DNA from: Anaerolineaceae bacterium
Lineage (GTDB): Bacteria > Chloroflexota > Anaerolineae > Anaerolineales > Anaerolineaceae
Direction of reading: 5' to 3'
Assembly: GCA_029975475.1 (NCBI GenBank)
Contig: JARKPB010000018.1
Location: 1-64,000, forward strand
DNA length: 64,000 nt
Shown here: positions 8,763 through 25,740 of the stretch, in pieces
Layout: every line of letters starts with the position of its first letter
How positions within the stretch are numbered: the first letter of the stretch is position 1
Position numbers and translations under genes: made by a program
The notes under the pieces: generated by a model
What the model saw: the letters and a program-made list of their open reading frames with translations, nothing else
Told to the model about the DNA's origin: nothing
Database searches by the model: none

Positions 8763-9635
8763 TTATTTTACCATGCGCAGCTTTTTCATAGATGAAAGCT
8801 CGCTCTCGTAGACTTTTTTAACTCCATCGCCCAGCGACGCTTCGGTGACCCGGATATACTTGACCAGGCGTTCAAAACCGCCCGGCTCCACCGAAGCCGC
8901 CTGGTCGCTGCCCCACATGGCGCGGTCGAGGGTGATGTGACGTTCCACCATGCATGCGCCCAGCGAGACCGCAACCACCGATGGAATCAACCCCACCTCG
9001 TGGCCGGAATAGCCAATCGGGACATCAAATTCTTTTTTGAGCGTTTGGATCATCAATAAATTCAGTTCGCTCGGGTCGCACGGATACGTGCTGGTGGCGT
9101 GGGTGATCACCAGGTCTTTTAAGCCTAAAACGCCCACCGCGGCGCGGATCTGTTCCATGGTGGACATTCCGGTGGAGAGAATCACCGGCCGGCCGGTCTT
9201 CCGCAGGTGTTTGAGCAGCTCGTGATCGGTCAATGAAGCCGAAGGAACCTTGTAGGCGACCGTGTCAAAGGCTTCCATAAAATCAACCGAGGGAATATCC
9301 CACACGGAAGCAAACCAGGTGATGCCGATTTCTTTACAGTACCGGTCGATCTCCCGGTATTCCGTTTCGCCAAATTCGACTTTATGACGGTATTCCAGAT
9401 AGGTGATTAAACCCCAGGGCGTTTCGCGGATTTGCCCCTGCTGCTCCACCGGCACACACAATTCCGGGGTGCGCTTCTGGAACTTGACCGCATCCACACC
9501 AGCCTCTTTGGCTGCCGCGATCAGTTTTTTTGCAATCGCCACATCGCCGTTGTGATTGATGCCAATTTCCGCCACCACATAGGTCGGGTGTCCATTGCCG
9601 ACATAACGGTCACCAATTTTGACAGCATTACTCAT
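8763..9635 (-). CDS. NeuB-family nonulosonate synthase lacking the SAF domain
   Basis: A 290-residue TIM-barrel enzyme that should condense phosphoenolpyruvate with a hexosamine to form a nine-carbon acidic sugar. Family motifs are AEIGINHNGD (residues about 22-31), AVKFQKR (about 48-54), STGMSTMEQI and GYSGHEVG, all in the expected order. The usual enzyme has about 345 residues, with a C-terminal antifreeze-like SAF domain that lids the active site of the partner subunit; that domain is absent. The second NeuB homologue at 18004-19071 keeps it. The next gene downstream is a CMP-sugar synthetase-phosphatase fusion, consistent with one pathway. The exact sugar (Neu, Leg, KDN or other) is not decided. 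Confidence 0.88.
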   Translation of the reverse strand: MSNAVKIGDRYVGNGHPTYVVAEIGINHNGDVAIAKKLIAAAKEAGVDAVKFQKRTPELCVPVEQQGQIRETPWGLITYLEYRHKVEFGETEYREIDRYCKEIGITWFASVWDIPSVDFMEAFDTVAYKVPSASLTDHELLKHLRKTGRPVILSTGMSTMEQIRAAVGVLGLKDLVITHATSTYPCDPSELNLLMIQTLKKEFDVPIGYSGHEVGLIPSVVAVSLGACMVERHITLDRAMWGSDQAASVEPGGFERLVKYIRVTEASLGDGVKKVYESELSSMKKLRMVK

Positions 9636-9647
9636 GATCAGCTCCTT

Positions 9648-10874
9648 TTATTGCCTGTATTTCAAAATCATATCGCAGATTTCCCGGACGGCCCCATGTC
9701 CGCCACTGCGAGTCAGCACGAGATCGGCCTGAGGCAGCACCTCGGGCTGCGCATCTGCGACCACCACCGCGCAGCCAACCAGATCGAAGCACGGCAGGTC
9801 GTTAATATCATTGCCAACAAAAACCACATGGTCTGGCCGAATATTTTTTTCTGTGAGATAACGGCGCAGCGTATCGGCTTTGTCCGCGACGCCGTGAAGG
9901 TAGGGAAGCTTCATTTTATTACACCGGGCAGCCACCACCGGGTCGGTTTCTGTAGAAAGGACCATGGCCGGGATTCCCGCTTTCATCATCCGCTGCAATC
10001 CCATGCTGTCGGAGCGGTAAGCGGCTACAAATTCTTCTCCCTGCCCGTTTACCCAGACGCGGTTATCCGTCATCACCCCGTCAAAATCGAAAACGACCAG
10101 TTCAACCGGATCTGGCAGTCCCCGCCGCGCTCGTCCGGGGTGAACCATATCCAGCCCGCCGTAATACACCAGCCATTCCGCCCGCTGCCAGTCAGAGGGA
10201 TTATCAATATCCACGGTATAGCGCGGATCGACCAGCACCGGCAGGATCAGGCTGCCGCTCATACTGCCCTGCTCCAGGATCGCTCGCGGACGGATCGCAT
10301 CAATATGCCCGGTCTGCCAGTAGGTAGACGGCAGCGACTGGCGCGGCGCGTTGAAGGGTTCCGCCAGACCTTCAACCCGCAGCAGCGGTACCAGCGCGCC
10401 TGTGGATGGCTCGATCCGCCACATTTTATACGGATTCTGGCCAGACGGAACCACCCCGCGAACCGAATCGGCTTCCGGGTGGGAGAGCAGCAGCTCAACC
10501 GTTTCATCTACCAGACCTACCGGCCGGACCGGTGAAGTTGGCCTGAGTTGCACAATCACATCCGGGTGGTAATTCTCGTGCTGCGCCAGCCAACGCAAGG
10601 CATGTTCAAACACCGGCAGGTCGAGCGTGGTGTCTTGAGCCAGCTCGGCCGGGCGCATAAACGGGGTTTCAGCGCCAAGCGAGCGGGCCACCGCTGCGAT
10701 TTCCTCATCATCGGTTGAGACAATCACCCGGGTGACCAGTTTCGCCTTCAGCCCCGCGGCAATGCTGTAGCCAATCAAGGGGCAGCCAGCGAAGCTGCGG
10801 ATATTCTTGCGGGGAATACCCTTTGACCCACCGCGGGCGGGAATAACCGCCAGCACTTCTGCTCGGGTTACCAT
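9648..10874 (-). CDS. CMP-nonulosonate synthetase fused to a KdsC-like HAD phosphatase
   Basis: A 408-residue two-domain enzyme. Residues 1-230 are a cytidylyltransferase (VIPARGGSKGIPRKNI at about 10-25), which activates the acidic sugar with CTP. Residues about 245-408 are a HAD phosphatase of the KdsC type (VVFDFDGVMTD with both catalytic Asp, STET, HGVADK, VGNDINDL). The phosphatase probably removes the 9-phosphate left by a synthase that uses a phosphorylated hexose, as in KDN and vertebrate-like sialic acid routes. It overlaps the upstream SDR gene by seven bases and has GGAGG before its ATG. Confidence 0.9.
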   Translation of the reverse strand: MVTRAEVLAVIPARGGSKGIPRKNIRSFAGCPLIGYSIAAGLKAKLVTRVIVSTDDEEIAAVARSLGAETPFMRPAELAQDTTLDLPVFEHALRWLAQHENYHPDVIVQLRPTSPVRPVGLVDETVELLLSHPEADSVRGVVPSGQNPYKMWRIEPSTGALVPLLRVEGLAEPFNAPRQSLPSTYWQTGHIDAIRPRAILEQGSMSGSLILPVLVDPRYTVDIDNPSDWQRAEWLVYYGGLDMVHPGRARRGLPDPVELVVFDFDGVMTDNRVWVNGQGEEFVAAYRSDSMGLQRMMKAGIPAMVLSTETDPVVAARCNKMKLPYLHGVADKADTLRRYLTEKNIRPDHVVFVGNDINDLPCFDLVGCAVVVADAQPEVLPQADLVLTRSGGHGAVREICDMILKYRQ

Positions 10875-11695
10875 GCCGTCCAGCCTCCATCCACCACCAG
10901 ATTGGAACCAGTCATGTAGCTGGAAGCGTCAGACGCCAGGTAAAGCAAAGCGCCGCTCATTTCATCCTTTTTTGCCATCCGGCCCAGCACGGTGCGGGCG
11001 GAATAATTTTGAACAAAGACGTCGTCATGCTGGTTGAATACACCGCCAGGGGTCAGACAGTTGGCGCGAATATTGCGGCCGGCATAATAGGTCGCCAGGT
11101 AGCGGGTTAACCCCAGCACGCCCGCTTTGGTAACCGAATAAAAAACCGGTTTAAACGCCTGGCGGCTCTCACCCGGACGGCGGTAAATCCGCTGATCGGG
11201 ACCCACCAGCCCGTAGGTCGAGCAGATGTTGATAATCACACCATGCTCCTGCGCCAGCATCGGTTGAACGGCTGCCTGCGCGCACAGGAACATCCCGGTC
11301 AGGTTGACATCCAGCGCCTCTTTCCAGGCGGTCAGCGGATAGGTCTCAAAGGCGTTGGCGCCTTGTTCGCCCAGGTGGCTGCTGTCAAATTTGGGATCTA
11401 ACGCCGCCGAACACACCAGGATATCCAGACGGCCAAATTTCTCCAGGGTCAGACCGACCATATTATTCACCGATTCCGGCCGGGTAACATCCACGCCCAG
11501 CGGAAGGACTGAAAGGTCGTCACGCTTGAGTTGATTGGCCGCGTCGATAGCAGCTGTTTCATTAAAATCTGCCATGACGACTCGCGCGCCGGCTTCAGCC
11601 AGAGTGCGGCAAAATTCTTTGCCCAGCAGCCCGGCGCCGCCGGTGACCACCGCTACCTGTCCATCCAGGCGGAATTTATCCAAAATGGTGCTCAT
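10868..11695 (-). CDS. SDR oxidoreductase, PtmA-like
   Basis: A 275-residue short-chain dehydrogenase. It has the NAD-binding motif VVTGGAGLLGKEF (residues about 15-27), the catalytic Ser in NICSTYG and the YSVTK (Tyr-x3-Lys) pair. The C-terminal stretch SDASSYMTGSNLVVDGGW is typical of the subgroup called flagellin modification protein PtmA, found beside nonulosonate genes in Campylobacter-type glycan loci. Placement directly upstream of the CMP-sugar synthetase supports a role in making the hexosamine precursor or in modifying the acidic sugar. ATG at 11693-11695 follows GGAGGATAATGGATC. Confidence 0.85.
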   Translation of the reverse strand: MSTILDKFRLDGQVAVVTGGAGLLGKEFCRTLAEAGARVVMADFNETAAIDAANQLKRDDLSVLPLGVDVTRPESVNNMVGLTLEKFGRLDILVCSAALDPKFDSSHLGEQGANAFETYPLTAWKEALDVNLTGMFLCAQAAVQPMLAQEHGVIINICSTYGLVGPDQRIYRRPGESRQAFKPVFYSVTKAGVLGLTRYLATYYAGRNIRANCLTPGGVFNQHDDVFVQNYSARTVLGRMAKKDEMSGALLYLASDASSYMTGSNLVVDGGWTAW

Positions 11696-11712
11696 GATCC
11701 ATTATCCTCCGG

Positions 11713-12702
11713 TTAATTTTGGATCGGAACCACCTGGCCGGCGCGCGCAGATGCGTGCGCGGCGGCGACCAGTTCCATGTCTTTGATACCGTCTTCCAGC
11801 GTGCAGATCGGATCTTCTTTTCCCGCGACAACCTGGATAAAATGGCGCATCTCGGCCAGAAACAGGTGATTGCGCTCAAAACCATCTGGCGGCAAAAAGA
11901 CAGACTCTGGCTGATCGGGCAGCAGCAAGCGCGCCGCGCCGTCGCTGTTATCCCAGCGCAGGGTACCACCGCTTCCCAGAATTTCCAGCCGGTGCGCGCC
12001 AGGGCGCTGGAAGTAATTCAGATGCACGCTCCCCAGCACACCCCTGGTAAAACGCAGCCCGATTTCAGCCACATCCTCAACACTGATTTCCAGGTCAGAA
12101 ATTTTACCGCTGAATCCCCATAACGCGCTGACCTCGCCCAGCAGCCAGCGCAGGTAATCCAGCGGGTGGGACAACGTGCCAATCACCCCGCCGCCCAAAT
12201 CTGCGCGGGCTGCGTAAGACTGGCGATAATCCTCCCAGGGATGCCAGCCGGGCAGGAACTCGCCCCAGTGGGCGCGGACCGACAGCGGTTCGCCGATGGC
12301 GCCTTCCTCCAGCAGCGACTTGATTTTGTTTAACCCGGGATGAAAGCGGAACTGGTAGCCCATCAGCAGCCGTCCGCCGCCGGACTGCAGCGCCTGTTCC
12401 AGCCGCGAAATGCCGTCCAGACTTGCGGCGATCGGTTTTTCCATCAAGATTGAACAGCCCATTTCCGCGGCCGGGACAGCCACTTCCAGGTGCAGCGCGG
12501 TCGGATTGCTGATAATGACCGCGTCCGGGCGGTGCCCCAGGGCAGCCACCAGGCTTGTTTCAACCGGGAATCCTTCCAATTCGTCAACCGGGATCGTGCT
12601 GCGGTTGGTGCGGTAGAGGACGATATCGCGTTCGCCCAATTCCAGCAGATTGCGGAAATGCCGCCGGCCAATCGAGCCAAAACCAGCCACCAGAAATTTC
12701 AT
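11713..12702 (-). CDS. Gfo/Idh/MocA-family NAD-dependent oxidoreductase
   Basis: A 329-residue two-domain dehydrogenase. It has an N-terminal Rossmann domain (FLVAGFGSIGRRHFRNL, residues about 3-19) and the family signature CSILMEKPIA at about 90-99 with the conserved Lys-Pro. It probably oxidises or reduces a nucleotide- or phospho-sugar of the cluster. The start at 12700-12702 is chosen because AGGAGGAAAAGGC precedes it and it overlaps the upstream stop as ATGA; an upstream in-frame start would run into the neighbour. The substrate is not predictable. Confidence 0.88.
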   Translation of the reverse strand: MKFLVAGFGSIGRRHFRNLLELGERDIVLYRTNRSTIPVDELEGFPVETSLVAALGHRPDAVIISNPTALHLEVAVPAAEMGCSILMEKPIAASLDGISRLEQALQSGGGRLLMGYQFRFHPGLNKIKSLLEEGAIGEPLSVRAHWGEFLPGWHPWEDYRQSYAARADLGGGVIGTLSHPLDYLRWLLGEVSALWGFSGKISDLEISVEDVAEIGLRFTRGVLGSVHLNYFQRPGAHRLEILGSGGTLRWDNSDGAARLLLPDQPESVFLPPDGFERNHLFLAEMRHFIQVVAGKEDPICTLEDGIKDMELVAAAHASARAGQVVPIQN

Positions 12703-14159
12703 GCCTTTTCCTCCTGCCGCGCGAATCGTTCCACCAGAGAGGCCAAATATTCGCCGGTGCGGCGTCCCGCGCTGCCGTCGGTAAACGTGCATTCATCGCG
12801 GACAAATTGCTGGCGGGCGGCCTGGTCCGCGGAGGGATCCTGCAAATAACGATTGATCGCGGCCGCCAGTTCTTCCTCAGTCATCGCTGCCCGGCCCGCG
12901 CCCGCCTGGCGGAAGCGTTGATGGGTTGGCCATTCGCCAATTTCAGAAAGTTTCAGGGAAAATTTTCCCGGCGTGTTCCACCCTCCGGGAACATCCAGGC
13001 AAACGGCAACAATTGGGCGGTCATGAATGGCCGTTTCCACCACCATGGTTGAATAGACCGTCAGAAACACATCGGCATAAGCCATCATGGACGCCTTTTC
13101 GGGCATATCTTCGCCGCTGTAATAGCCCAGTTCTCCGCCCAGCGGGACGGGCTCTACCAGGTGAACGTGAGGATATTCGCGCGTCAGCTGACGGACGCGT
13201 TCCGCCTCTTTTTCATACAGGCTGCCCTTCATGAAGTGATTGGGGTGCAGGCGGATCAGCAGCTGACAGGGTTCGCTGAGCTGATCTGAATTCACCAGTC
13301 GCGCCAGGGTCTCAATATTGCGGATATTGGGAGAAAAGGTCACGAAACTGCAGGCGTACGCCAGCAGGCGCCGCTGCGGGTCGAGGTGATGCAGCCGGTA
13401 ATATTCATCCCGCGGCATCAACCAGGTTTTGCGGAAATAGCCGTCGTAAGAGGGGATCCCGCCGACGTGAACGCGCTCAGGCGCCCAGTCAGATCCCTCT
13501 ACCAGTTCCGTCTTTTGAATCTCCGACCAACAGGTAATCCAGTTGACCGGCGCGCCCGGCAGGCGGTACGAACTGGGATTATCCCAGCCGACAATCACCG
13601 CGGCGGTTTGAATCCCGCGCGCAGCCGCCTCGCGCAGCAGGTAACGGTCAAAACGCCAGCCCGGGGTGCTGGCAACCACCAGATCAGGTTGATATTGATC
13701 CAGCAGGTCAGCGTAGATGGCTGGCGTAAAGCGCTGCTGGGCGTTTACCAGCCAGCGCCTCGCGAGGCGCGAGCGGCGCAACACCCAGGTGGCCAGGCTA
13801 ATCAAGGGCATGATCCATTTTCCGCGGCGGGAGGTTTCCACCCCCATTTGCCGCAAATGGCCGTCCATCGCGGTGGTGTTGATTCGTCTGGAACCGCCCA
13901 TCCAGCGCAAAAAGTGAAGCCAGTATTGCCAGCGGTGATGATCGCGCTCAAAATAGCGGCGCGCCTGGTCTAAACGCAGACCCTCAACGGTCAGCCCGGG
14001 ACGGCCAAACCTTTTGGTGATTTGATCTTTTAAGCCGTCATCCGTGAGCAAAACGACTTCTATTCCAGCCTCAAGCAATGCCGAAAGCACATCTGTTTGC
14101 AGAAAATACACCACTGCCAGGCCGTGGTCTGCGCTGATCATAATGCGTTTGTTTGCCAT
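12699..14159 (-). CDS. GT-B-like glycosyl/glycerophosphate transferase, unassigned
   Basis: A 486-residue cytosolic protein. Features are MISADHGLAVVYFLQTDVL at the start (a Rossmann-like first strand), IQTAAVIVGWDNPSS near the middle, LLIRLHPNHF, and ADVFLTVYSTMVVETAIHDR near residue 380. This pattern (RxHP, then a Ser/Thr-rich loop and an acidic site) is shared by CDP-glycerol glycerophosphotransferase-like and capsule glycosyltransferases. The N-terminal region is unlike the paralogue pair at 3870 and 21972. It is coupled to the Gfo/Idh gene by an ATGA overlap. Role in polysaccharide assembly is inferred from context. Confidence 0.72.
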   Translation of the reverse strand: MANKRIMISADHGLAVVYFLQTDVLSALLEAGIEVVLLTDDGLKDQITKRFGRPGLTVEGLRLDQARRYFERDHHRWQYWLHFLRWMGGSRRINTTAMDGHLRQMGVETSRRGKWIMPLISLATWVLRRSRLARRWLVNAQQRFTPAIYADLLDQYQPDLVVASTPGWRFDRYLLREAAARGIQTAAVIVGWDNPSSYRLPGAPVNWITCWSEIQKTELVEGSDWAPERVHVGGIPSYDGYFRKTWLMPRDEYYRLHHLDPQRRLLAYACSFVTFSPNIRNIETLARLVNSDQLSEPCQLLIRLHPNHFMKGSLYEKEAERVRQLTREYPHVHLVEPVPLGGELGYYSGEDMPEKASMMAYADVFLTVYSTMVVETAIHDRPIVAVCLDVPGGWNTPGKFSLKLSEIGEWPTHQRFRQAGAGRAAMTEEELAAAINRYLQDPSADQAARQQFVRDECTFTDGSAGRRTGEYLASLVERFARQEEKA

Positions 14160-14193
14160 AAAAGCGGTTCAATCCTTTTTCGCAGCGCGAACG

Positions 14194-15141
14194 CTAGGGA
14201 TTATAAAGCCTGAAAATGCGGTCATACAGCCAGAGCAACGGCTTTTTGATGAGCGGGAAATCCCACACACCGCGCTGGCGGGTGGCAGCCGGAGGCTGCA
14301 GTGCTTTGTGGCGCAGATGCGGTGGCAGCGTATTGCTCATATTTTGAACCAGCGGATCGGCGGTCATCAAACGCAGATAACCGCGGTCGTTCAGACCCCG
14401 ATCCAGCATGCGCACCTGCCCCATGGGCCGGTCCATGTTAAACGGCACAAATTCATTCAAGACCGCTTTCCAGCCCACAAACTGAAAATGATTGGCGCCG
14501 GCATACGCCGTTACGCCTTTATAGGTCAGGCGCACATCCTGTGTGCTGGCATAGACCTCTTCAATCTTTCCTTCCGGATACCCCATGGTCTCGGCGAATT
14601 CTTTATACATCTCCCAGGACATGAGCTGCCCTTCTTCCACCCTTACATCCGGGGTAGAAGCAGCCCAGGCCTGCACACTGGTGTAAAGCTCGGATGGAGT
14701 GCGCAGCGGCCGGGCGGTCACCATTCCCACCCGCGGATAGGTTTCAAGCACTTCAACCGATTTTGACAGCCAACCGGGATAAAAGAGCGCATCGCTATCG
14801 CTGTAAGCGATAATTTCACCCGGCGCTGCCGCAAAAATGACATTCCAGGCGCCGCCTTTTCCCAGATTTTTTTCAGATAGCAGCAGATACTGGATGCGGC
14901 CAGCCCGCTGTTCATTCACCAGATAATCAACCACCTCGGCGCACGAGCCGTTGTCAAAGACCATCAGATCAAACGGCAAATCCGCGCCTTCCCGCAGTGA
15001 GGTCAGGCAAACCTTCAATACATCCAGGGTTTCGGTATAAAAGCCGCTTAAAAAGGGGATGTAATTTAATACCGCAGCAGTGATGCGGGCTGGTTTCGCG
15101 ACTTCTTTGGCAGCTTTGGCTGGATTTTGTCCGATACGCAT
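14194..15141 (-). CDS. Family 2-type glycosyltransferase
   Basis: A 315-residue GT-A protein. It has the DLMVFDNGSCAEVVDYL motif (residues about 58-74), then NLGKGGAWNVIF and IIAYSDSDALFYPGW, which supply the nucleotide-sugar and metal (DSD) site. The C-terminus is basic and amphipathic. GGGAG lies nine bases before the ATG at 15139-15141. It would add one residue to the glycan; sugar specificity is unknown. Confidence 0.85.
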   Translation of the reverse strand: MRIGQNPAKAAKEVAKPARITAAVLNYIPFLSGFYTETLDVLKVCLTSLREGADLPFDLMVFDNGSCAEVVDYLVNEQRAGRIQYLLLSEKNLGKGGAWNVIFAAAPGEIIAYSDSDALFYPGWLSKSVEVLETYPRVGMVTARPLRTPSELYTSVQAWAASTPDVRVEEGQLMSWEMYKEFAETMGYPEGKIEEVYASTQDVRLTYKGVTAYAGANHFQFVGWKAVLNEFVPFNMDRPMGQVRMLDRGLNDRGYLRLMTADPLVQNMSNTLPPHLRHKALQPPAATRQRGVWDFPLIKKPLLWLYDRIFRLYNP

Positions 15142-15166
15142 GAGTCAGGCTCCCTGAGATAGATAC

Positions 15167-16102
15167 TCAACCTTGGTTGGGCTGTTCGCGCCGATTCCGC
15201 AGATACTGGCGGAATTCGCGGTAGGCTCTGACCGGGTGAAAAACGGCAAAAAAGACCTGCGCCAGCCATTTCGAACGCAGGCTGATCAGGGGGAAAATTT
15301 CGACCTCGCGCCAAAATTTATCCCAGGTCAGGCGGGGACGCAGGATGCGTCCGCCGGTCATCCGGCGGTTGCAGTCGCGCAAATGAAAGATGACGCGTTT
15401 CCCGCCAGCCAGACGGACATTCTCGCCGGTTTCTGGCAGGCGGTAATGCGGCTGCCCGCCCGGGAGGTGGTGATAATCATGCTGCTGATGAATGATCATG
15501 ACCTGTTCGCTGCAGTCCACTGCCGGCCAACCCTGTGCGCGCGCCTGGTAGATCATCCAGTTGTCCCAGCCTGCCCGCCCGATGGCAAAATCCGGGATGC
15601 TGGTAAAGCAGCCCCGCGGGAATAAGAAATAATCGCTGCCGGTGGCCACATGCAGGCGCCCCTGAGCGGCGACCTGATCGCGCAAACGCGTTTCATAATC
15701 GCCAGAAAAATCGATCAGCCCGGTCACCTCCAGATCCCAGCGGCGGCCCACCAGCATAAACTCAGGCATTCGCGCCGAAGCCAGTTCAGCGGCAGCCAGA
15801 AGATCCGGCAGCAGGATGATATCCGCGTTGACGTAAGCCAGCAGCGGGCTGGAGGAATGCTCGCGCGCCAGATGAAAAATCGAGGAAATCAATGGAGTGC
15901 CGTGAGCATTCCGGACGACCTCTGGCAGGTAACCGACCCGGTATTCCCGCGCCACTTCCGCTGCGCCTTCTTCCGCGCCGATTAAAAAAACTTCCACCGC
16001 TTCACTCAGCGCCAGCCAGGAGCGAATCGCGTTTCGCTGGATCAGATCAATATGCGGATGGGTAAAAGGCTTTGGAGCCGTGAAAATGGTCAACTTTGGC
16101 AT
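15167..16102 (-). CDS. Putative GT-A-fold glycosyltransferase
   Basis: A 311-residue protein. It starts with KLTIFTAPKPF, followed by WLALSEAVEVFLIGAEEG and LLAYVNADIILLPDLL (residues about 86-101, with the Asn-Ala-Asp that replaces DxD). It ends in a basic membrane-associating tail (FHPVRAYREFRQYLRNRRE). This layout is typical of small glycosyltransferases found in surface polysaccharide loci, though I cannot name the exact family. Three bases separate its start from the stop of the cytidylyltransferase gene upstream. Confidence 0.7.
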   Translation of the reverse strand: MPKLTIFTAPKPFTHPHIDLIQRNAIRSWLALSEAVEVFLIGAEEGAAEVAREYRVGYLPEVVRNAHGTPLISSIFHLAREHSSSPLLAYVNADIILLPDLLAAAELASARMPEFMLVGRRWDLEVTGLIDFSGDYETRLRDQVAAQGRLHVATGSDYFLFPRGCFTSIPDFAIGRAGWDNWMIYQARAQGWPAVDCSEQVMIIHQQHDYHHLPGGQPHYRLPETGENVRLAGGKRVIFHLRDCNRRMTGGRILRPRLTWDKFWREVEIFPLISLRSKWLAQVFFAVFHPVRAYREFRQYLRNRREQPNQG

Positions 16103-16105
16103 ACT

Positions 16106-16876
16106 TCACCGGTTGCGCTGGTCAATGTCATTGTAAGATTTATGGGCGACGCCAGAATTAATTGCGCTCAGCTCGGGATGCTGCTGGACCAAAGCCAACA
16201 CATCCAGCCAGGAGAAATCATCGCGTCCGCCAAAAGCCGCGGCGATGCGCCGCGCGGCCTCCAGGTCCTGGGGAGTATCCACGGTCCAGCGGTACGAACC
16301 GCAATCCGTTTCATGCTGCAGCAGCAAGGTCTTAAACCGCCCTTCGCTGTCATAGAGGTAGGGCATCACATGTTCGCGTTCATAGGTTTCGCGCGCTTCG
16401 CGCCAGGCGCGTTCGAGTGCAGAAAAAGAAGCCACCTCGGTATCCAGCCCGATCGGGTAGGTACGCCGCCAGGGAGGCGGGAGACGGTTGGCGGCAAAAT
16501 CCACCCCGCTGGCCAGAAAAGCGCGGATGGTTTCATCTACCAACTGCGGATCAAGAAACGGACAATCAGCAGTGATGCGCACCACCACATCCGCCTGAGC
16601 GCTTTTGGCCGCCTGATAAAAGCGGTCCAGAACATCGTAGAGCGACCCGCGGAAACAGGCGATCTGATTTTCGGCGCACCACGCTGCCAGCGGGTCATCA
16701 GCCGGGTCTTTGGTTGTGGCAACCATCACTTGATTAACCAGGCTGGCGCGGCTGGCGCGGCGAACAACCCATTCCAACATTGGGCGGCCTTCGATTGGCA
16801 GCAATACCTTACCCGGCAGGCGGCTTGAGCCCATGCGAGCCTGGATAATCGCGACGATCCGCTGCTCGGTGCTCAC
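16106..16876 (-). CDS. SpsF-like cytidylyltransferase
   Basis: A 256-residue nucleotidyltransferase. The N-terminal motif AIIQARMGSSRLPGKVLLPI (residues about 9-28) and RGSLYDVLDRF are diagnostic of the SpsF branch of CMP-sugar synthetases (spore-coat polysaccharide and pseudaminate-type loci). It should couple CTP to an acidic sugar. GTG at 16874-16876 is the start, preceded by GGGAGGCTGAC and overlapping the glycosyltransferase stop as GTGA. It lies two genes from a SAF-containing NeuB homologue, its likely partner in a second nonulosonate route. Confidence 0.87.
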   Translation of the reverse strand: MSTEQRIVAIIQARMGSSRLPGKVLLPIEGRPMLEWVVRRASRASLVNQVMVATTKDPADDPLAAWCAENQIACFRGSLYDVLDRFYQAAKSAQADVVVRITADCPFLDPQLVDETIRAFLASGVDFAANRLPPPWRRTYPIGLDTEVASFSALERAWREARETYEREHVMPYLYDSEGRFKTLLLQHETDCGSYRWTVDTPQDLEAARRIAAAFGGRDDFSWLDVLALVQQHPELSAINSGVAHKSYNDIDQRNR

Positions 16877-17997
16877 GTCAGCCTCCCACGCTGAAGATCA
16901 AAAGCGCGCTGATAGGCGTTCAATAAAATTTGGAAATTCTCTTTCCAGTTGGCGCGCTGTTCGGCCAGTTTTCGAGATTTTTCTCCCATCTGTTTCAGAC
17001 GCTGAAGATCGGAAGCAGCCCGGAGGATGGCGGCGGTTAGAGCCTCTTCATTTCCATCCGGAAAAAGCCAGCCCTGCTTATCTTCACTGATCCACTCTTT
17101 ATTGCCGGGAATATCCGAAACCAGCGCGGGCAGCCCGCAGGCAAGCGCTTCCATCAATGAAACGCTGGAACCATCGGAATGCGAAGCGCTCACATACAAA
17201 TCGGCTGAGCGGTAGACTTCCGGCAGATCGGAATTTTTCACCTGACCGCCCAGATAAACCCGCTCCGCCAGATCATTCTGCTGGATCAGGCGCTGGATCA
17301 TGGGGGCTTGAGAGCCGTTTCCCAGTAAGATCAGCCGCAGGCGCGGTTCCTGACGGGCAGCCCGGGCAAATGCGCGCACCACCAGGTCCACCCCGTAGAG
17401 CGGCTCCCAGGAGCGCAGAGAAAGGATAACGATCTCGTCCTCCCATCCCAGCCGTTTGCGCAATTTTTTCTTGCCGGCCGGGGTGAAATGCTCAAGATCA
17501 ACACCCCACGGGAAGAGCATGACGCGGTCCTCGGGAAACCCGTAAGCCGCGGCTTCCTGCCGCACTGCCTGACAATCTCCCAGCAGGATCTCCGTGTGGC
17601 GCAGGGCGAAACCCACCGCGCGGCGAGCCCAGGCAGACCGCCTGGCTTCCAGCAGGAGATCTGAACCCCACGACATGCTGACCAGCGGTTTTGCGCCAGC
17701 CAGAGCTGCCAGAAAAGCGCAGTTCGGCAGCGGGCCGGCGTGAATCACATCCGGTTTCCGATCGTGCAGAATCTGACGCAGCTCCGCGTACAACCCCGGG
17801 TAGTCCGGGAGGCGCAGCGGCCGCTGACCGCCCCGCCAGGGGATCCACTCGATCTCGGGCGGTAAGGCGCGGTCTTCCCGCTGCACCTGACCGCGCTCCA
17901 GCCGCAGGAGAGCGACCGAATGGTCGGTCGCAGCCAGAGCGGAGAGGAACCGGTGGTCGTGCGGGGTGTAGTCGCGGGTGAAATACAGGATGCGCAT
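16873..17997 (-). CDS. Family 4 glycosyltransferase
   Basis: A 374-residue GT-B enzyme of the RfaG/GT4 family. N-terminal acceptor domain starts MRILYFTRDYTPHDHRF. The donor domain carries LILLGNGSQAPMI, VYLGGQVKNSDLPEVYRSAD and the E-x7-E-like site SLMEALACGLPALVSDIPGNKEW (shown in part: EALACGLPALVSDIPG). It would transfer a sugar from a UDP- or GDP-donor on the cytosolic face. Neighbours are the SpsF-like enzyme and the NeuB homologue. Confidence 0.92.
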   Translation of the reverse strand: MRILYFTRDYTPHDHRFLSALAATDHSVALLRLERGQVQREDRALPPEIEWIPWRGGQRPLRLPDYPGLYAELRQILHDRKPDVIHAGPLPNCAFLAALAGAKPLVSMSWGSDLLLEARRSAWARRAVGFALRHTEILLGDCQAVRQEAAAYGFPEDRVMLFPWGVDLEHFTPAGKKKLRKRLGWEDEIVILSLRSWEPLYGVDLVVRAFARAARQEPRLRLILLGNGSQAPMIQRLIQQNDLAERVYLGGQVKNSDLPEVYRSADLYVSASHSDGSSVSLMEALACGLPALVSDIPGNKEWISEDKQGWLFPDGNEEALTAAILRAASDLQRLKQMGEKSRKLAEQRANWKENFQILLNAYQRAFDLQRGRLT

Positions 17998-18003
17998 AAT
18001 CGT

Positions 18004-19071
18004 TTAGTCAGACAGATCCAGCCAGCGGATTTCTTTCCCTTCTGGCAGATCATAACGGACGGTTTTGCCAATCACCCCATTGATTTCATACGGCAGGATG
18101 GCTCCCGGTGTGGCAGGCCGCAGGACCTTCAAATCCGAGCGGGACAGACGTTCGCCTGCTTTGAGCGCTCTGGCTGCGCGCACACAGCGGCGTTGAATGA
18201 TGACCGTCTCCTGTTCATTTCCGGCCACAAACTTCTCGCTTGAACCCAGAGCAGCTTCCAGCTGGCGCGTGTTTTCCACCATGGCTGCCCAGCTGGTCGG
18301 GTCCATCGAGAAGGGGTGATCGGGGCCTTCCCGGCTGGTATCATCGGTGAAATGTTTTTCGATCACCCGCGCGCCGAGCGCGACAGCCCCGAGGACGGTC
18401 GCGTGACCGGGCGTGTGATCAGACAGGCCAAGGATCAGATCGGGGAACATGGCGGCATAGGTCTTGAGGACGTTCAAATGGATATGCGCCATGTTTTCGA
18501 GGCTGCCGGTGTAATTGGTGTTGCACTGCATCAGGACGAGCTGGGGATTGATCGCGGTGATCGCGCGAACGGCGCGTTGAACATCGCCGATATCCGAAGC
18601 CCCGGTAGCGAGCAAAACCGGCTTCCCTTTGCGGGCGATATGCTCCAGTTCTTCAACCCAGGTGATATCACCCGAACCGATTTTGTGCACTTCAACATAC
18701 GGGTCCAGATGGTCAACCGCCTCAAAATCGTAAGGGGATGAAAAATAATCAATCCCCACTTCGTCGCAGACCTGTTTCAGGCGCGGGGTCCATTCAAAAG
18801 GAATCGAGGCTCCCTGATAAACCTCGAACACGCTCTTTTTCCATTTCGCCTGGTGCGATTGCTGGGAGCCCAGACTCTTGAAGCCGTAATCGGAGACGAT
18901 TTCAGCGGCGCGGAAGTTTTGAAATTTCGCCGCATCCGCTCCGGCTTTCTTCGCCAGACGCACCAGATACTCCGCGCGTTCCAGACTGCCGTCATGGTTT
19001 GCGGATATATCCGCGATGAAATAGGTTGGATGGTGAAGACCGATGGTATGACTCCCGATCCGAATTTCCAT
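18004..19071 (-). CDS. NeuB/SpsE-family nonulosonate synthase with SAF domain
   Basis: A 355-residue full-length synthase. The TIM barrel has ADISANHDGS (residues about 19-28), AAKFQNFRA, YFSSPYDFEAVD, KIGSGDITW, LLATGASDIGDV and GLSDHTPGH. The C-terminal SAF domain spans about 285-350 (RRCVRAARALKAGERLSRSD). The enzyme joins phosphoenolpyruvate to an aldose to make a nine-carbon 3-deoxy sugar acid. GGAGGCACC precedes the ATG at 19069-19071. It is only distantly similar to the shortened NeuB at 8763-9635, so two different acidic sugars are plausible. Confidence 0.9.
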   Translation of the reverse strand: MEIRIGSHTIGLHHPTYFIADISANHDGSLERAEYLVRLAKKAGADAAKFQNFRAAEIVSDYGFKSLGSQQSHQAKWKKSVFEVYQGASIPFEWTPRLKQVCDEVGIDYFSSPYDFEAVDHLDPYVEVHKIGSGDITWVEELEHIARKGKPVLLATGASDIGDVQRAVRAITAINPQLVLMQCNTNYTGSLENMAHIHLNVLKTYAAMFPDLILGLSDHTPGHATVLGAVALGARVIEKHFTDDTSREGPDHPFSMDPTSWAAMVENTRQLEAALGSSEKFVAGNEQETVIIQRRCVRAARALKAGERLSRSDLKVLRPATPGAILPYEINGVIGKTVRYDLPEGKEIRWLDLSD

Positions 19072-19082
19072 GGTGCCTCCTA

Positions 19083-20048
19083 TTAGAAAGTTGCGGTATC
19101 ATCCGGTTTTGCACCGGAGCGCAAATCCAGTTGAAAAGATTGCACATACTGACCGAAGCCCTGCCGGTACTGGGCATAAAAACCCTCCAGCCCCTCATCC
19201 ACTCCGGGGAGGGGATGACCAAGGGCAGCGGCCAGTTTTTCGCTGCTAGCGCTCAGGTCTGGCGAGCGCGGCGCGGCAAGCCGGACAGCGCCGTCCGCAT
19301 AGCGTACCGGTCGGATTAACTCGGCCGGCAGCTCAAACCGCTTTGCCAGGCGAATGCCAAAATCGTATTTTGAGAGCGCTTCGCGTCCCAGTACATGATA
19401 CAATCCGGTCAAGTCTTTCTGCAAGGCTTCCATCAACAAATCTACCAGATGATTTACCCACAGCGGGCAGAAAATGACATCGGTAAAACCATTCACCGGC
19501 CGCCGCTGCAGTAAATTATTGAGAAAAAACTCCGCCAGCGAACGCCTGCCGTTCAGGCTGAAGCCGTAAAAATTAACCCGCGCCACCAGCGCGTCGGGGT
19601 TAGCAGATCGGACGCGTTCTTCTCCCATCAACTTGGTCCGCGCGTAGGTATTGATCGGGTTGGGCTGATCTTCTTCGCGGTAATTTCCGCGCTGGCCATC
19701 AAAGACCGCATCGGTGGAGATATGCACCAGACGAATGCCCATCCGTTTGGTCAGCGAGGCCAGCTCGCCGGGCAGCGCGGCGTTCACCTTTTCAGCCAGT
19801 TCGGGGTTTTGCTCGCAGACATCCAGGTTTGCCTGGGCAGCGCAATGAATCAGCACATCCGGTCGGGACATTTCCAGCAGTTTGCGCGCCTGCCCCGGCT
19901 CGGTCAGGTCCACCGCCAGCACCGGAAAAGGAACGCCAACCAGAGAGCTGGTGTGGACAATCCCCAGGATGTCTTCCCGTTCGTGCAGATGTAACGCCAG
20001 GTTGAGTCCCAAAAGGCCACTGGCCCCTGTGACCAGGATGCGCGTCAT
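19083..20048 (-). CDS. RmlD-like NAD(P)-dependent sugar reductase
   Basis: A 321-residue extended SDR. It has the nucleotide motif ILVTGASGLLGLNLAL at the N-terminus, the STDAVFDGQRGNYREED signature and Tyr-x3-Lys in TYARTK, all typical of dTDP-4-dehydrorhamnose reductase and UDP-4-keto-6-deoxyhexosamine reductases. It overlaps the PseB-like dehydratase gene (ATGA), so the likely substrate is the 4-keto product of that enzyme. Unlike CapF-type enzymes it has no C-terminal cupin domain. It may make a 6-deoxy-N-acetylhexosamine; this is inferred from the pairing. Confidence 0.85.
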   Translation of the reverse strand: MTRILVTGASGLLGLNLALHLHEREDILGIVHTSSLVGVPFPVLAVDLTEPGQARKLLEMSRPDVLIHCAAQANLDVCEQNPELAEKVNAALPGELASLTKRMGIRLVHISTDAVFDGQRGNYREEDQPNPINTYARTKLMGEERVRSANPDALVARVNFYGFSLNGRRSLAEFFLNNLLQRRPVNGFTDVIFCPLWVNHLVDLLMEALQKDLTGLYHVLGREALSKYDFGIRLAKRFELPAELIRPVRYADGAVRLAAPRSPDLSASSEKLAAALGHPLPGVDEGLEGFYAQYRQGFGQYVQSFQLDLRSGAKPDDTATF

Positions 20049-21055
20049 TCCAGTTTACCCTGTTCAAACTCGACTTCAAGCGGGGCGATGATCGCGCGGA
20101 TCTGTTCCACGCTCAACCACTGCGGATTGTTGTTGCTGGCGTAGCGAAAATCTTCCGGCAGCGCCCTGCCCAGGCTGCTCCAGTCGGTGTCCCGCGACCA
20201 GAAGGTGTCCACCGGGTGAACGATGAACATATCCTCCAGCTCAACCGTGGTGCGGGCTTCATCTTCACCGATTAAAACTTCATGAAGTTTCTCACCCGGG
20301 CGGATGCCAACCACCTCGGTCTCGGCTTCAGGCGCTACCGCGCGCGCCAGGTCCGAGACGGTCATGCTGGGAATTTTCGGGACGAAAACTTCGCCGCCGC
20401 GCATTTGCTCGATGCAGCGAATGACAAAGCGCACCCCTTGATCCAGCGAGATCCAGAAGCGGGTCATGCGCTCATCGGTGATGGTCAATTTTCCGCTGCT
20501 GCGCTGCTTGAGAAACAGCGGCACGACGCTGCCGCGGCTGCCAACCACGTTGCCGTAACGCACGCAGGCGAAGCGCGTTTGCCGGCCGCCCGCGTAGGCG
20601 TTAGACTGAATAATCAGTTTTTCCGCGGCCAGCTTGGTCGCGCCGTACAGGTTGACCGGGTTAACCGCCTTATCCGTGCTGAGCGCCAGCACCCGTTCCA
20701 CACCGCAATCCAGAGCCGCGTCAATCACATTGCTGCTGCCCAGGATATTGGTCTTAATCGCTTCCATCGGGTTATACTCGCAGGCCGGCACCTGTTTCAA
20801 CGCCGCGGCATGGACAACAATATCCACACCTTCAAAAGCGCGCCGCAATCGGCTGGCATCGCGAATGTCGCCGATAAAATACCGCAGACTGGGGTGGTCA
20901 TAACCCGCCTGGCGCATTTCATGCTGCTTGAGTTCATCACGGCTGAATACGATCACCTTGGCGGGATGATATTCATCCAGCATCATGCGGATAAAACGCT
21001 TGCCAAAAGATCCGGTGCCGCCCGTAACCAGAACGACTTTATTTTTCCAGTCCAT
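20045..21055 (-). CDS. UDP-N-acetylglucosamine 4,6-dehydratase (PseB/CapE family)
   Basis: A 336-residue extended SDR. Features are VLVTGGTGSFGKRFIRMML (residues about 9-27), HAAALKQVPACEYNPMEA, STDKAVNPVNLYGATK with the catalytic Tyr-x3-Lys, and YGNVVGSRGSVVP. These are diagnostic of PseB/FlaA1/CapE-type enzymes that convert UDP-GlcNAc to a 4-keto-6-deoxy (sometimes 5-epimerised) product. A GGGAGTAAACA site precedes ATG. It feeds the RmlD-like reductase encoded next. No PseC-type aminotransferase is present in the cluster, so classic pseudaminic acid synthesis is not complete here. Confidence 0.92.
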   Translation of the reverse strand: MDWKNKVVLVTGGTGSFGKRFIRMMLDEYHPAKVIVFSRDELKQHEMRQAGYDHPSLRYFIGDIRDASRLRRAFEGVDIVVHAAALKQVPACEYNPMEAIKTNILGSSNVIDAALDCGVERVLALSTDKAVNPVNLYGATKLAAEKLIIQSNAYAGGRQTRFACVRYGNVVGSRGSVVPLFLKQRSSGKLTITDERMTRFWISLDQGVRFVIRCIEQMRGGEVFVPKIPSMTVSDLARAVAPEAETEVVGIRPGEKLHEVLIGEDEARTTVELEDMFIVHPVDTFWSRDTDWSSLGRALPEDFRYASNNNPQWLSVEQIRAIIAPLEVEFEQGKLE

Positions 21056-21083: not shown

Positions 21084-21962
21084 TCATCCAACCGGGATAT
21101 CATCTTTTCGGATCACGATCAGGGGGTACTGTCCCTTCTCGCCGAACCACTCGGGGTTGCGCTCTTCCATCCAGAAGAGCAATTTCAGCCAAAACCGGCC
21201 GCCCAACCAGGGGTGAATGACTGCCCTCAAAAAACGCACCGAAACGCTGCGCCAGATGTAGATCTTGACTGAGTCGAGATTCTTTAATTGCTGGCGCACC
21301 CAGGCAGCGTCAATTTTCTGAACGTGCGTGCCAGTTGGAGCGGGTTTCGCCGCGCCGGCCGGGCTGGTTTCGGTTTTCTGCTCCGCTTTGCGCCCGCGCA
21401 GCCGGGCAGCCGCCCCGCCCAACTTCTCAAACAACAGCATCAACCACTTGAGCCGGTTCATCAGGCTGGATGAGGTCCAGCCGTTGACCACCACGGCAGT
21501 GTGACCCGGTTTTAAGACCCGGTCCAGTTCAAAATAACCGCGTTTCTGGTCTTCTGCCGGCAGGTGGTGAAGCGTATGCAGGGATACCACCCCGTCAAAG
21601 ACTTCACCCTCAAAAGGCAGCGCTGCCACATCGCCAACCACATACAAACCATGTTCGCCCAGGCGCTGTTTTGCCTCGCGCACCGCCAGAATGCTGATAT
21701 CCAGGCAGACGCGGCGCTGATAATGCTCAGAATAGGTTAAATATTCAGGATACTGCACCGGTCCCGACCCGGCATCCAGTAAGAAACGGCCGCTGGGACT
21801 CAAATAGCGTTTGACGCGCAGGTGGCATTTGTGGATGTATTCGCGCGAGACCGGGCGCAGGTCTTCGTAGTGAGCGTTCTGGTACACATTGTCGCTCACT
21901 TTCTTCCAGCCGACCTGGTCATAGAATTCACGCACTTCTTTTTTGATTTCGGTGTTCTTCAT
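21084..21962 (-). CDS. Class I SAM-dependent methyltransferase
   Basis: A 292-residue protein. The SAM-binding core is GRFLLDAGSGPVQYPEYL (residues about 72-89), then VCLDISILAVREAKQRLG and VSLHTLHHLPAEDQKRGYFE, as in Methyltransf_11-type enzymes. A Lys/Ala/Pro-rich linker near residues 185-215 precedes an unassigned C-terminal part that contains several Trp and a hydrophobic patch (WLGGRFWLKLLFWM), which may associate with the membrane. It probably methylates a sugar, lipid carrier or chain terminus; chain-capping methylation is common in ABC-exported O-antigens. Confidence 0.85.
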   Translation of the reverse strand: MKNTEIKKEVREFYDQVGWKKVSDNVYQNAHYEDLRPVSREYIHKCHLRVKRYLSPSGRFLLDAGSGPVQYPEYLTYSEHYQRRVCLDISILAVREAKQRLGEHGLYVVGDVAALPFEGEVFDGVVSLHTLHHLPAEDQKRGYFELDRVLKPGHTAVVVNGWTSSSLMNRLKWLMLLFEKLGGAAARLRGRKAEQKTETSPAGAAKPAPTGTHVQKIDAAWVRQQLKNLDSVKIYIWRSVSVRFLRAVIHPWLGGRFWLKLLFWMEERNPEWFGEKGQYPLIVIRKDDIPVG

Positions 21963-24888: not shown

Positions 24889-25740
24889 CTACACCATATC
24901 CGCGAAACGGCGTTCCATGCGCCGGAAGAAAAACAATCCGCTGAACAGGATCACCAAGGAAACAGCGATGGAAATCACCAGATTCCAGCCCGGCGCGCCG
25001 GCTTCCACCCCCAGCAATGCCCAGCGGAAACCGTTCACCACCCCGACCATCGGATTGAGCGAATACACAAATCGCCACGCCTCAGGCACAAGGGTGGAAC
25101 CGTAAGCAATCGGGGTGATAAACATCCAGAACTGGGTCAAAAATGGAGAGACATACCCGATGTCGCGGTAAAGGACGTTCAGGGCTGAAAGCCAGAGCGC
25201 GACGCCCAGAGCGGTGATGATGGTGAGCAGTAAAAACAGCGGCAAGGTCCAGACAGCGGAAGTCGGGGCGATCTGGTAGTACCACATCATCCCGAGTAAA
25301 ACCAGAAAGGCGATGGCAAAATCCACCACCCCCGCCAGAATATTGCTGAGCGGCAGGATGATGCGCGGAAAATAGACTTTGGTGATCATATTGCTGTTGG
25401 CCACCAGCGACCGCGCCGCGACCCCCAGGGATACTGCAAAAAGTTCCCAGGGCAGCAGGCCGGAATACGAAAAAATCGGGTAGGGAATGTTATCCGAAGG
25501 CACTTTGGCCAGATTGCCAAAAAAGATGCTGAAGACCACCATGCTCAAGAACGGCCGCAGCACCGCCCAGCTGGCGCCCAGCAGGGTCTGCTTGTAGCGC
25601 ACAATAATGTCGCGCCAGGTCATGAACAGGATCAATTCGCGGTAACGCCACAATTCGCCAAAATCAAGGGCTGACCAGCCGGTTTTCGGGCGAATGATGG
25701 TGATCCGTTCTTCGATCTGCGGAGCGGAAGAAATGGTCAT
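24889..25740 (-). CDS. Wzm-like ABC-2 polysaccharide export permease
   Basis: A 283-residue integral membrane protein with about six hydrophobic segments. Family motifs include ELWRYRELILFMTWRDIIVR near residue 30 (the amphipathic entry helix) and YFPRIILPLSNILAGVVDF near 145. It partners the ATPase encoded one base downstream. This ABC-dependent route means the polysaccharide is finished in the cytoplasm before export, unlike Wzx/Wzy systems, and no wzx or wzy is seen in the cluster. Confidence 0.92.
   Translation of the reverse strand: MTISSAPQIEERITIIRPKTGWSALDFGELWRYRELILFMTWRDIIVRYKQTLLGASWAVLRPFLSMVVFSIFFGNLAKVPSDNIPYPIFSYSGLLPWELFAVSLGVAARSLVANSNMITKVYFPRIILPLSNILAGVVDFAIAFLVLLGMMWYYQIAPTSAVWTLPLFLLLTIITALGVALWLSALNVLYRDIGYVSPFLTQFWMFITPIAYGSTLVPEAWRFVYSLNPMVGVVNGFRWALLGVEAGAPGWNLVISIAVSLVILFSGLFFFRRMERRFADMV

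Follow-up and report, generated by a model that had tools for sequence, protein, structure and literature searches.

Two different nonulosonate synthases, one of them coupled to an RmlD-like reductase, in a glycan cluster of an Anaerolineaceae bacterium: putative fusaminic-type and Kdn-like pathways

Pseudaminic and legionaminic acids bear nitrogen at C7. In the synthesis of the former, PseB forms a 4-keto-6-deoxy-L-sugar that is aminated by PseC (PMC5109656), and papers that join pseudaminic acid with RmlD treat, in their available portions, the latter as a rhamnose enzyme. The O-chain of Fusobacterium nucleatum ATCC 25586 contains 2-acetamido-2,6-dideoxy-L-altrose (L-6dAltNAc) together with fusaminic acid, whose configuration is tentative (PMC13014188); the portions available of the fusaminic acid literature give structures and no biosynthesis genes, and we found no published gene set for a fusaminic-type (7-hydroxy, 9-deoxy) route. 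Streptomycete teichulosonic acid contains 3-deoxy-D-glycero-D-galacto-non-2-ulosonic acid (Kdn) (PMC7831098, PMC11481543), for which S. coelicolor carries the genes SCO4873-SCO4882 (PMC13011467). None of the papers listed by a search of the Anaerolineae literature mentions nonulosonic acid. Here we analyse a glycan cluster contained in a stretch of 64,000 nucleotides (hereafter the window; positions 1 to 64,000 of contig JARKPB010000018.1) from the 3.15 Mb genome of an Anaerolineaceae bacterium (Chloroflexota), which includes genes for two NeuB-type synthases, NeuB1 and NeuB2. The best overall explanation, to which we assign a probability of about 50%, is that the cluster supplies a surface glycan, exported by an ATP-binding cassette (ABC) transporter, with two CMP-activated nonulosonic acids of different chemistry, the NeuB2 acid bearing a hydroxyl at C7 and the NeuB1 acid being of the Kdn type.

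NeuB1 and NeuB2 are the only NeuB-family matches retrieved by a whole-genome search, both above the family cut-off, and their scores with the NeuB model, 253.4 and 274.9 bits, fall below its cut-off of 399.65. NeuB1 gave no match to a SAF domain, and because 92 of the 97 open reading frames that match it best are 325 residues or shorter, this is a trait of the family and not a truncation. In a tree of 84 sequences (from 110, after omitting 26 rows, which were near-copies, duplicates and four long branches, Leptospira chain 6ncs included; 14 of the 84 were ungrouped), the NeuB1 (30 rows), NeuB2 (25), Pse (8), Leg (5, three of them Chloroflexota loci labelled by a NeuC neighbour) and Neu (2) sequences each lay on one side of a branch with respect to the other groups. 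The NeuB1 and NeuB2 clades were supported with 100/100 each, NeuB1 being apart from the Leg and Neu rows and NeuB2 grouping next to the Pse (PseI) rows, labelled by context, with 95/68. In approximately unbiased (AU) tests, a joint clade of NeuB1 and NeuB2 was rejected (p-AU 0.005), as was NeuB2 with Leg (p-AU 0.0097); the groups used in these tests and in the neighbour counts below were named from a first quick tree of 110 rows. The separate clades and the lack of SAF as a trait of the NeuB1 family led us to discard the idea that NeuB1 is a truncated copy of NeuB2. Given these clades, the rejection of a joint one and the different partner genes, the two acids very probably differ chemically, as a first-pass annotation of the window had proposed, naming a NeuB phylogeny as one way to check it; the outcome that would have spoken against its proposal, both synthases in a single clade, did not occur.

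Both kinds of synthase were present in all 24 sampled genomes of two families of Anaerolineales, that of the window (7 genomes) and a sister family (17), taken from an even sampling of genomes; that every sampled genome of both families has a match depends on our tables being ordered by kinship. In each of them, a second PseI-model match of about 800 bp, stopping before the C-terminal part, corresponded to a NeuB1-type gene; these genes were recognised by matches ending at position 269-279 of the 327 of the profile, and not by the tree for all. The two genes were at most 31 kb apart in 14 of the 24 genomes, more than 170 kb apart in three (G176, G120 and G046) and on separate contigs in seven. 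The constant feature of the two families is thus the pair of synthases and not a single joint cluster, and the modules are separable.

In the window, NeuB2 is preceded by pseB and by the gene of an RmlD-like short-chain dehydrogenase/reductase (SDR), which overlaps the end of pseB by 4 bp and is 12 bp from NeuB2. The nearest solved chain to PseB is 2gn4 ('UDP-GlcNAc C6 dehydratase'), with 396 bits versus 243 for CapE, and the T, D, K, Y and K of its TDK...YGATK stretch are conserved in all 29 aligned PseB-like proteins; likewise, all 32 aligned RmlD-like proteins retain the S, T, Y and K expected at the catalytic site. Whole-genome searches retrieved nothing above cut-off for PseC (three matches, best 286.2 of 423.5 bits), PseH (six, best 53.1 of 93.1), PseG (one, 22.8 of 153.55) or NeuC (best 61.8 of 235.9), and a complete Pse or Neu set in the cluster was discarded. 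LegB, LegC, LegG and LegH were below cut-off or absent among the cluster proteins scanned, which speaks against a Leg set among those proteins; LegB, LegC and LegH were not searched genome-wide. The first-pass annotation had deduced from the lack of PseC, PseH and PseG that neither acid is standard pseudaminic acid and, although the standard route is indeed missing, it had overlooked PseB and the RmlD-like reductase. Since PseB is present and coupled to this reductase, and NeuB2 lies beside PseI, one acid has probably a pseudaminic-type skeleton without the 7-amino group. Judging from gene content, what is new here is that an RmlD-like reductase appears to stand where PseC, PseH and PseG would, together with a synthase clade next to PseI; PseB plus a catalytically intact ketoreductase coupled to a PseI-like synthase, without PseC, PseH and PseG, is what we took as our own working definition of a fusaminic-type route, and the window conforms to it.

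From the genes, their order, their conservation and their clades, we infer the following reactions. As established for PseB, the window enzyme would convert UDP-GlcNAc into UDP-2-acetamido-2,6-dideoxy-L-arabino-hexos-4-ulose, whose 4-keto group would be reduced by the RmlD-like enzyme, in place of the amination by PseC, to yield UDP-6-deoxy-L-AltNAc or its 4-epimer. After release of UDP by a further enzyme, NeuB2 would add pyruvate, forming a 5-acetamido-3,5,9-trideoxynonulosonic acid that bears a C7 hydroxyl (a '7-hydroxy-pseudaminic' or fusaminic-type acid), and the SpsF-like enzyme, which we assign to NeuB2 because an SpsF homologue was near PseI in all seven loci with a pseudaminic context, would produce its CMP form. 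A reductase in place of PseC and PseH would leave a hydroxyl at hexose C4, the later C7 of the nonulosonate, and we consider the chance of such a C7-hydroxy product to be about one half. By Fischer bookkeeping, pseudaminic and fusaminic (L-glycero-L-gluco, tentative) acids both derive from an L-altro hexose, and the sole centre at which they differ is C4, created by the synthase itself; the occurrence of L-6dAltNAc and fusaminic acid in one O-chain is what a route through PseB, a reductase and NeuB2 would predict. Possibly, with odds that we judge somewhat short of even, the RmlD-NeuB2 pair represents a further nonulosonic branch beside the neuraminic, legionaminic and pseudaminic ones, in which ketone reduction replaces amination; it would be a core surface trait of the two families, accompanied in all their sampled genomes by a Kdn-like synthase, scattered in other phyla, and would supply the route that is missing for fusaminic-type acids. 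If true, a C7-hydroxyl route would explain how acids such as fusaminic acid arise, and with a small gene set that can be assayed.

NeuB2 was found, at E≤1e-60, in 26 of 301 Chloroflexota genomes, namely the 24 of the two families, one genome of another family (G222, 66% identity) and G159 (39%), whose match sits in a locus with PseC and PseG. A genome of a third family of the same order (G232) gave no NeuB2 or PseI-model match, nor did the other genomes of the class that were listed, and NeuB2 was rare beyond Chloroflexota (5 of 398, 2 of 247 and 1 of 246 genomes at E≤1e-70); a plasmid of Maritalea myrionectae carries a relative with 52.7% identity. Neighbours were counted by tblastn in pieces of 10.8-20.9 kb (64 kb for the window), requiring 45% of the query length and E 1e-5, and additionally 55 bits for RmlD and PseB. 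PseB and RmlD were upstream of NeuB2 and on the same strand in all 24 loci of the two families, including the window, and in ten loci from outside these families RmlD was upstream in eight and PseB in seven. PseG was near NeuB2 in none of the 34 loci. In comparison, the seven loci with a pseudaminic context contained PseC (7/7), PseG (7/7) and PseB (6/7) and never RmlD (0/7), and a same-strand RmlD above threshold was absent from the 16 other NeuB loci, one of which (L169) has an RmlD on the opposite strand. Between the GT4 glycosyltransferase and SpsF genes of the sister family we also observed genes for an AAC(3)-like acetyltransferase (in 11 of 24 loci; for example, L122:10282-11067) and a DUF4910 protein (10 of 24; L129:9344-10669), the latter also being near NeuB2 in L185 and L212; both proteins may modify the NeuB2 acid at its N-acyl group.

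The locus of G222 (L127) shows the order PseB, a pseC relic, PseF (292.7 bits, cut-off 205.7), RmlD-like, NeuB2 (67% identity), GT4 and a pseI relic. The pseC relic comprises only the first half of the gene and ends in stops, and the pseI relic matches only residues 266-361 of PseI, with 57% identity. The locus reads as a pseudaminic one whose amination and synthase genes decayed after the arrival of RmlD-NeuB2, as far as the sequence can tell; part of the relics may be due to an assembly fault. At a distance of about 12 kb, a second DegT gene reaches 245 of 423.5 bits for PseC and is beside a WecB-type epimerase, so that it is no clear substitute for PseC. We also discarded a simple swap of alleles with G267, a genome from the same genus, since the DNA alignment between the two is confined to short pieces of pseB and of the pseI end.

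NeuB1 belongs to a different setting. Its relatives (the 80 loci kept of 576, with 63-79% identity) come from Chloroflexota, with Longilinea and Bellilinea (Anaerolineaceae) among the nearest, and from Ignavibacteriota, Poribacteria, Streptomyces and others. In the 56 loci in which 5 kb or more of sequence precede the gene (36 from Chloroflexota and 20 from other or unranked groups), a same-strand haloacid dehalogenase (HAD) phosphatase was near NeuB1 in 49 (33/36 and 16/20, respectively) and a same-strand NeuA in 51. The SDR was near it in 33 of 36 Chloroflexota loci versus 6 of 20 of the others, and the Gfo/Idh gene in 20 of 36 versus 2 of 20, so that both are mostly a Chloroflexota addition to the core. 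This core of synthase, phosphatase and cytidylyltransferase implies a phosphorylated nonulosonate, as expected for a Kdn-9-phosphate route, in which a HAD phosphatase accompanies the cytidylyltransferase and the synthase: NeuB1 would condense phosphoenolpyruvate and a hexose 6-phosphate; in the fusion protein, the HAD half would remove the phosphate and the cytidylyltransferase half would make the CMP sugar of Kdn, or of a Kdn derivative modified by the SDR and Gfo/Idh enzymes. By analogy with Streptomyces, whose NeuB1 relatives (65-67% identity) have NeuA and HAD alongside in six loci, Kdn is the likeliest product, an assignment that we regard as tentative. That NeuB1 makes instead a legionaminic- or neuraminic-type acid, the SDR and Gfo/Idh proteins acting like PtmA and PtmF, is unlikely in our view. 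The first-pass annotation had called the SDR PtmA-like, a comparison that is reasonable because PtmA, LegF and PtmF occur together in a legionaminic cluster of Plesiomonas, at least in the available portion of the source (PMC4481668); but NeuC is below cut-off in the genome, as is LegB among the cluster proteins scanned, where no LegC-type or NeuC-type gene appeared either, NeuB1 falls apart from the Leg and Neu rows, and the HAD phosphatase points to a phosphorylated product.

Several features of other NeuB1 loci are worth recording. A sulfotransferase-type gene is present in 23 of the 80 loci and an ATP-sulfurylase/APS-kinase fusion in 22 (for example, L019:10946-11788 and L032:4453-6180), suggesting that the glycan of those relatives may be sulfated; neither was found among the window cluster proteins scanned. 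A D-2-hydroxyacid dehydrogenase gene occurs in 17 of 80 and an extra downstream SDR gene in 13 of 80 (L036:13176-14153). Six loci from Ignavibacteria-type bacteria and kin (L072:7293-8624) represent another NeuB1 setting, with a class III aminotransferase and, in five, a fatty-acid-hydroxylase-type protein. NeuB1 loci also appeared in records of Thiomonas intermedia (77% identity, with Chloroflexota-like neighbours) and Methanoculleus (L007 and L061), either through binning errors or gene transfer.

A number of observations weigh against the overall explanation. In the tree, the SH-like approximate likelihood ratio test gave the branch joining NeuB2 and Pse only 68, and NeuB2 with Neu was not rejected (p 0.112). 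No UDP-sugar hydrolase for the NeuB2 route was identified in the genome searches with PseG and NeuC or in the NeuB2 loci. PseH was near NeuB2 in 0 of 34 loci, a weak result given that the same query detects PseH in only 4 of the 7 pseudaminic loci, and the whole-genome model search is the better test. RmlD is absent from two of the ten outside loci (L185 and L211), the second of which has a DegT aminotransferase without RmlD, and PseB was not in the stretch read of three (L204, L210 and L212). For Alistipes, L219 has an annotated rfb (rhamnose) operon with a gene that is probably a true RmlD less than 3 kb from neuB, undetected at our threshold. As to NeuB1, the HAD half of the fusion protein reaches 84.3 of 180 bits with the equivalog model of the KDN-9-P phosphatase, short of the cut-off, and the link to Kdn in Streptomyces goes by genus and not by a tested gene. 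Finally, the two synthase genes lie no more than 31 kb apart in just 14 of the 24 genomes, so that the modules are separable.

Some of the evidence might also fit PseB and the RmlD-like enzyme making a UDP-hexosamine, 6-deoxy-L-AltNAc or a relative, for the glycan itself, with the substrate of NeuB2 coming from elsewhere. L-6dAltNAc is an actual residue of the O-chain of F. nucleatum 25586, according to the available portion of PMC13014188, no hydrolase was found that would free the PseB/RmlD sugar for NeuB2, and in the 24 loci of the two families RmlD stays within 104 bp of PseB and, in many of them, is further from NeuB2 (up to 3.9 kb). Outside the families, however, it is NeuB2 that RmlD joins, abutting or overlapping it (spacing of -16 to +8 bp) in all eight loci that have RmlD; in seven of these, PseB either lies at a distance of 1.5-7.5 kb or was not seen. 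Besides, hexosamine and nonulosonate roles could both hold. We consider this alternative improbable.

To a similar degree, we find it improbable that NeuB2 makes ordinary or epimeric pseudaminic acid, with the 4-amino group and the N-acetyl group coming from unlinked DegT and GNAT enzymes and with another job for the RmlD-like protein. The genome does contain GNAT-like places scoring up to 53 bits for PseH and, at 54958-56139 of the window, a DegT aminotransferase whose 288 bits for PseC are below the cut-off of 423.5 yet not low; furthermore, among the ten outside loci, three (L205, L210 and L211) have a DegT gene upstream of NeuB2, at about 1-2 kb, and three more (L127, L203 and L212) have one 9-12 kb from it. 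A 7-amino acid may therefore still be the product of some relatives of NeuB2, which counts against the overall explanation too. Conversely, neither DegT nor GNAT candidates exceed their cut-offs, PseG was not found above cut-off in the genome either, no DegT was detected by tblastn in the 23 loci of the two families other than the window, and the pseC of L127 is a relic. The window DegT gene is 37 kb off, surrounded by M42 aminopeptidase genes (48297-51467) and by genes for a transporter, a DUF92 protein and a class II tRNA ligase, and these neighbours led us to drop it as a cluster member. Very improbable is that the RmlD-like gene is the dTDP-rhamnose reductase of the organism, adjoining NeuB2 by chance: it encodes the only RmlD-family protein of the genome at E≤1e-20, and a rhamnose operon is near neuB on the Alistipes plasmid, but its RmlD score is below cut-off (185.9 of 224.05), it is again the neighbour of NeuB2 in 32 loci of several phyla, and no RmlA, RmlB or RmlC was seen among the cluster proteins scanned, the rest of the genome not having been searched for RmlABC.

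The cluster as a whole consists of minus-strand genes that follow one another between about 26.7 kb and 2.2 kb of the window (Table 1). From 26.7 kb, it starts with a GDP-fucose-synthase-like gene followed by Wzm, Wzt, CapB, a methyltransferase, PseB, RmlD-like, NeuB2 and GT4; it continues with SpsF-like, the conserved protein without family, a GT2, the Glyphos_transf-like protein, Gfo/Idh, SDR, the cytidylyltransferase-HAD fusion and NeuB1; and past NeuB1 come two more proteins, CapA (Capsule_synth-like), another GT2 and the third cytidylyltransferase. This is a cluster of the Wzm/Wzt type, as corresponds to an ABC-exported polysaccharide, and its gene order recurs in relatives. Domain matches (PF03102 and PF02348) bear out what the first-pass annotation had described: two NeuB homologues and three cytidylyltransferases in one cluster, a synthase without SAF accompanied by a NeuA-HAD fusion, an SDR and a Gfo/Idh gene, and a separate full-length synthase with SAF and an SpsF-like enzyme. 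The third cytidylyltransferase belongs to the same minus-strand run but lies about 5.9 kb outside the span (8763-20048) in which it had been placed, and the reading frame of the Gfo/Idh gene opens at 12792, its start being probably, from the arrangement of the sequence, at 12702, where it overlaps the stop of the previous gene. ABC export is likewise backed by the Wzm and Wzt genes; that both acids enter one exported glycan is suggested by gene order alone, and the two synthase genes are distant or on separate contigs in 10 of the 24 genomes.

Table 1. Features of the glycan cluster in the window. Homologue counts out of 25 loci take in L127 and L134.
Feature	Position	Strand	Evidence
Third cytidylyltransferase, without its own NeuB	2220..2900	-	PF02348 97.2 bits; PseF model 55.4, below cut-off 205.7
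GT2 glycosyltransferase	2897..3868	-	PF00535 88.8 bits
CapA, KpsC-like GT-B, candidate CMP-ulosonate transferase	3870..5483	-	PF05159 26 bits; RxHP in 40/40 relatives
NeuB1, nonulosonate synthase without SAF	8763..9635	-	PF03102 261 bits, E 1.3e-77
Cytidylyltransferase fused to C-terminal KdsC-type HAD phosphatase	9648..10874	-	PF02348 (CTP_transf_3) 69.8 bits; KdsC model 113 bits, below cut-off
SDR oxidoreductase, PtmA-like position	10868..11695	-	PF13561 158.6 bits
Gfo/Idh/MocA oxidoreductase, PtmF-like position	11713..12702	-	PF22725 78.4, PF02894 73.3, PF01408 46.7 bits
GT-B protein (Glyphos_transf-like), DDG and RxHP motifs	12699..14159	-	PF04464 26.2 bits
GT2 glycosyltransferase	14194..15141	-	PF00535 58.1 bits
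Conserved protein, no known family, GT-A-like by eye	15167..16102	-	Homologue in 20/25 loci
SpsF-like cytidylyltransferase, proposed CMP-activating enzyme for the NeuB2 product	16106..16876	-	PF02348 124.5 bits; 6oew 151.5 bits
GT4 glycosyltransferase, directly downstream of NeuB2	16873..17997	-	PF00534 120.8 bits; homologue in 23/25 loci (L127 among them)
NeuB2, nonulosonate synthase with SAF, beside PseI clade	18004..19071	-	PF03102 E 2.2e-72; SAF 39 bits
RmlD-like SDR, proposed 4-ketoreductase	19083..20048	-	PF04321 193.9 bits; TIGR01214 185.9, below cut-off 224.05
PseB, UDP-GlcNAc 4,6-dehydratase (5-inverting), proposed first step of NeuB2 module	20045..21055	-	TIGR03589 507.7 bits, cut-off 407.75
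Methyltransferase adjoining pseB	21084..21962	-	PF08241 60.9 bits; homologue in 20/25 loci
CapB, Capsule_synth-like, on the pseB side	21972..23573	-	PF05159 22.4 bits; RxHP motif; homologue in 17/25 loci
Wzt-type ABC ATPase	23622..24887	-	PF00005 76.6 bits; Wzt_C 25.6 bits, below cut-off 30.4
Wzm-type ABC permease	24889..25740	-	PF01061 55.2 bits

The cluster also encodes KpsC-like GT-B proteins, KpsC proteins being Kdo transferases. The predicted structure of CapA (mean pLDDT 91.8) retrieved five KpsC chains first with VIA-align (Z 15.6-16.7, rmsd 3.7-4.0, 261-286 aligned residues, the next hit having 13.0), and Foldseek E-values placed UDP-GlcNAc 2-epimerases first and KpsC at rank 12. The RxHP motif is present in CapA, CapB and the protein at 12699-14159, which also has DDG; both motifs have been named, in the available portion of the source, for bacterial sialyltransferases and Tannerella nonulosonate transferases (PMC6388019). 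The KpsC-like GT-B proteins are candidate nonulosonate transferases, which is a lead for the transfer step. The predicted GT-B fold of the 12699-14159 protein matches UDP-GlcNAc 2-epimerases and NeuC first (Z 22-24), and we considered it as the missing UDP-sugar hydrolase; MurG and other GT-B proteins follow closely (about 20), and DDG and RxHP fit a transferase equally, so that it may be either a hydrolase or a transferase. The GT4 protein downstream of NeuB2, also considered as a hydrolase, is likewise no more than a candidate, its place being taken by a short GT2 protein in five loci outside Chloroflexota.

As for the other genes, homologues of the third cytidylyltransferase appeared in 21 of the 80 NeuB1 loci, many of which are short contigs; having no NeuB of its own, it possibly serves a third CMP-activated acid. 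The protein at 15167-16102 gave no Pfam or NCBIfam match at E 0.001. Neither family database matched the 458-residue protein at 7145-8521, in which a DLGSNNGEFSR stretch resembles, by eye, an S-adenosylmethionine-binding methyltransferase motif. A membrane-type protein at 5585-7135 has a weak match to the sulfatase family (22.6 of 25 bits) and is perhaps a phospho-group transferase for the glycan, and just beyond the end of the cluster the product of 1025-2125 shows a weak WXG100 match (22.4 of 27.3 bits).

Environmental biofilms are reported to contain acids of the pseudaminic/legionaminic type as well as Kdn (PMC10915975), and Chloroflexi are described as highly abundant in wastewater bioreactors (PMC9942424), both according to the available portions of these sources. 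With a two-acid trait shared by all their sampled genomes, the two families would be a likely source of those acids.

Compared with the legionaminic clusters that contain PtmA, PtmF and LegF, the window shares the grouping of an SDR, a Gfo/Idh protein and a cytidylyltransferase, whereas LegB, LegC, LegG, LegH and PtmE were not seen among its cluster proteins scanned. The Kdn teichulosonic acid loci of Streptomyces resemble it in their orthologues of NeuB1 with NeuA and HAD and differ in that no SDR or Gfo/Idh neighbour was found in them, the likeness to the S. coelicolor genes going by genus. With the CMP-pseudaminic pathway (PseB-PseC-PseH-PseG-PseI-PseF) it has in common a PseB above cut-off, a NeuB2 beside the PseI clade and an SpsF-type cytidylyltransferase as in the seven Pse loci, but an RmlD-like reductase is found instead of PseC, PseH and PseG, and NeuB2 reaches only 238.8 of the 340.25 bits of the PseI cut-off. 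As to fusaminic acid, the likeness is by structure alone, the window bearing no sign of an amidino group; what both would share is the 7-hydroxy, 9-deoxy skeleton expected from an L-6dAltNAc precursor, a sugar that, as far as the available portion of the source goes, is itself part of the same F. nucleatum O-chain (PMC13014188).

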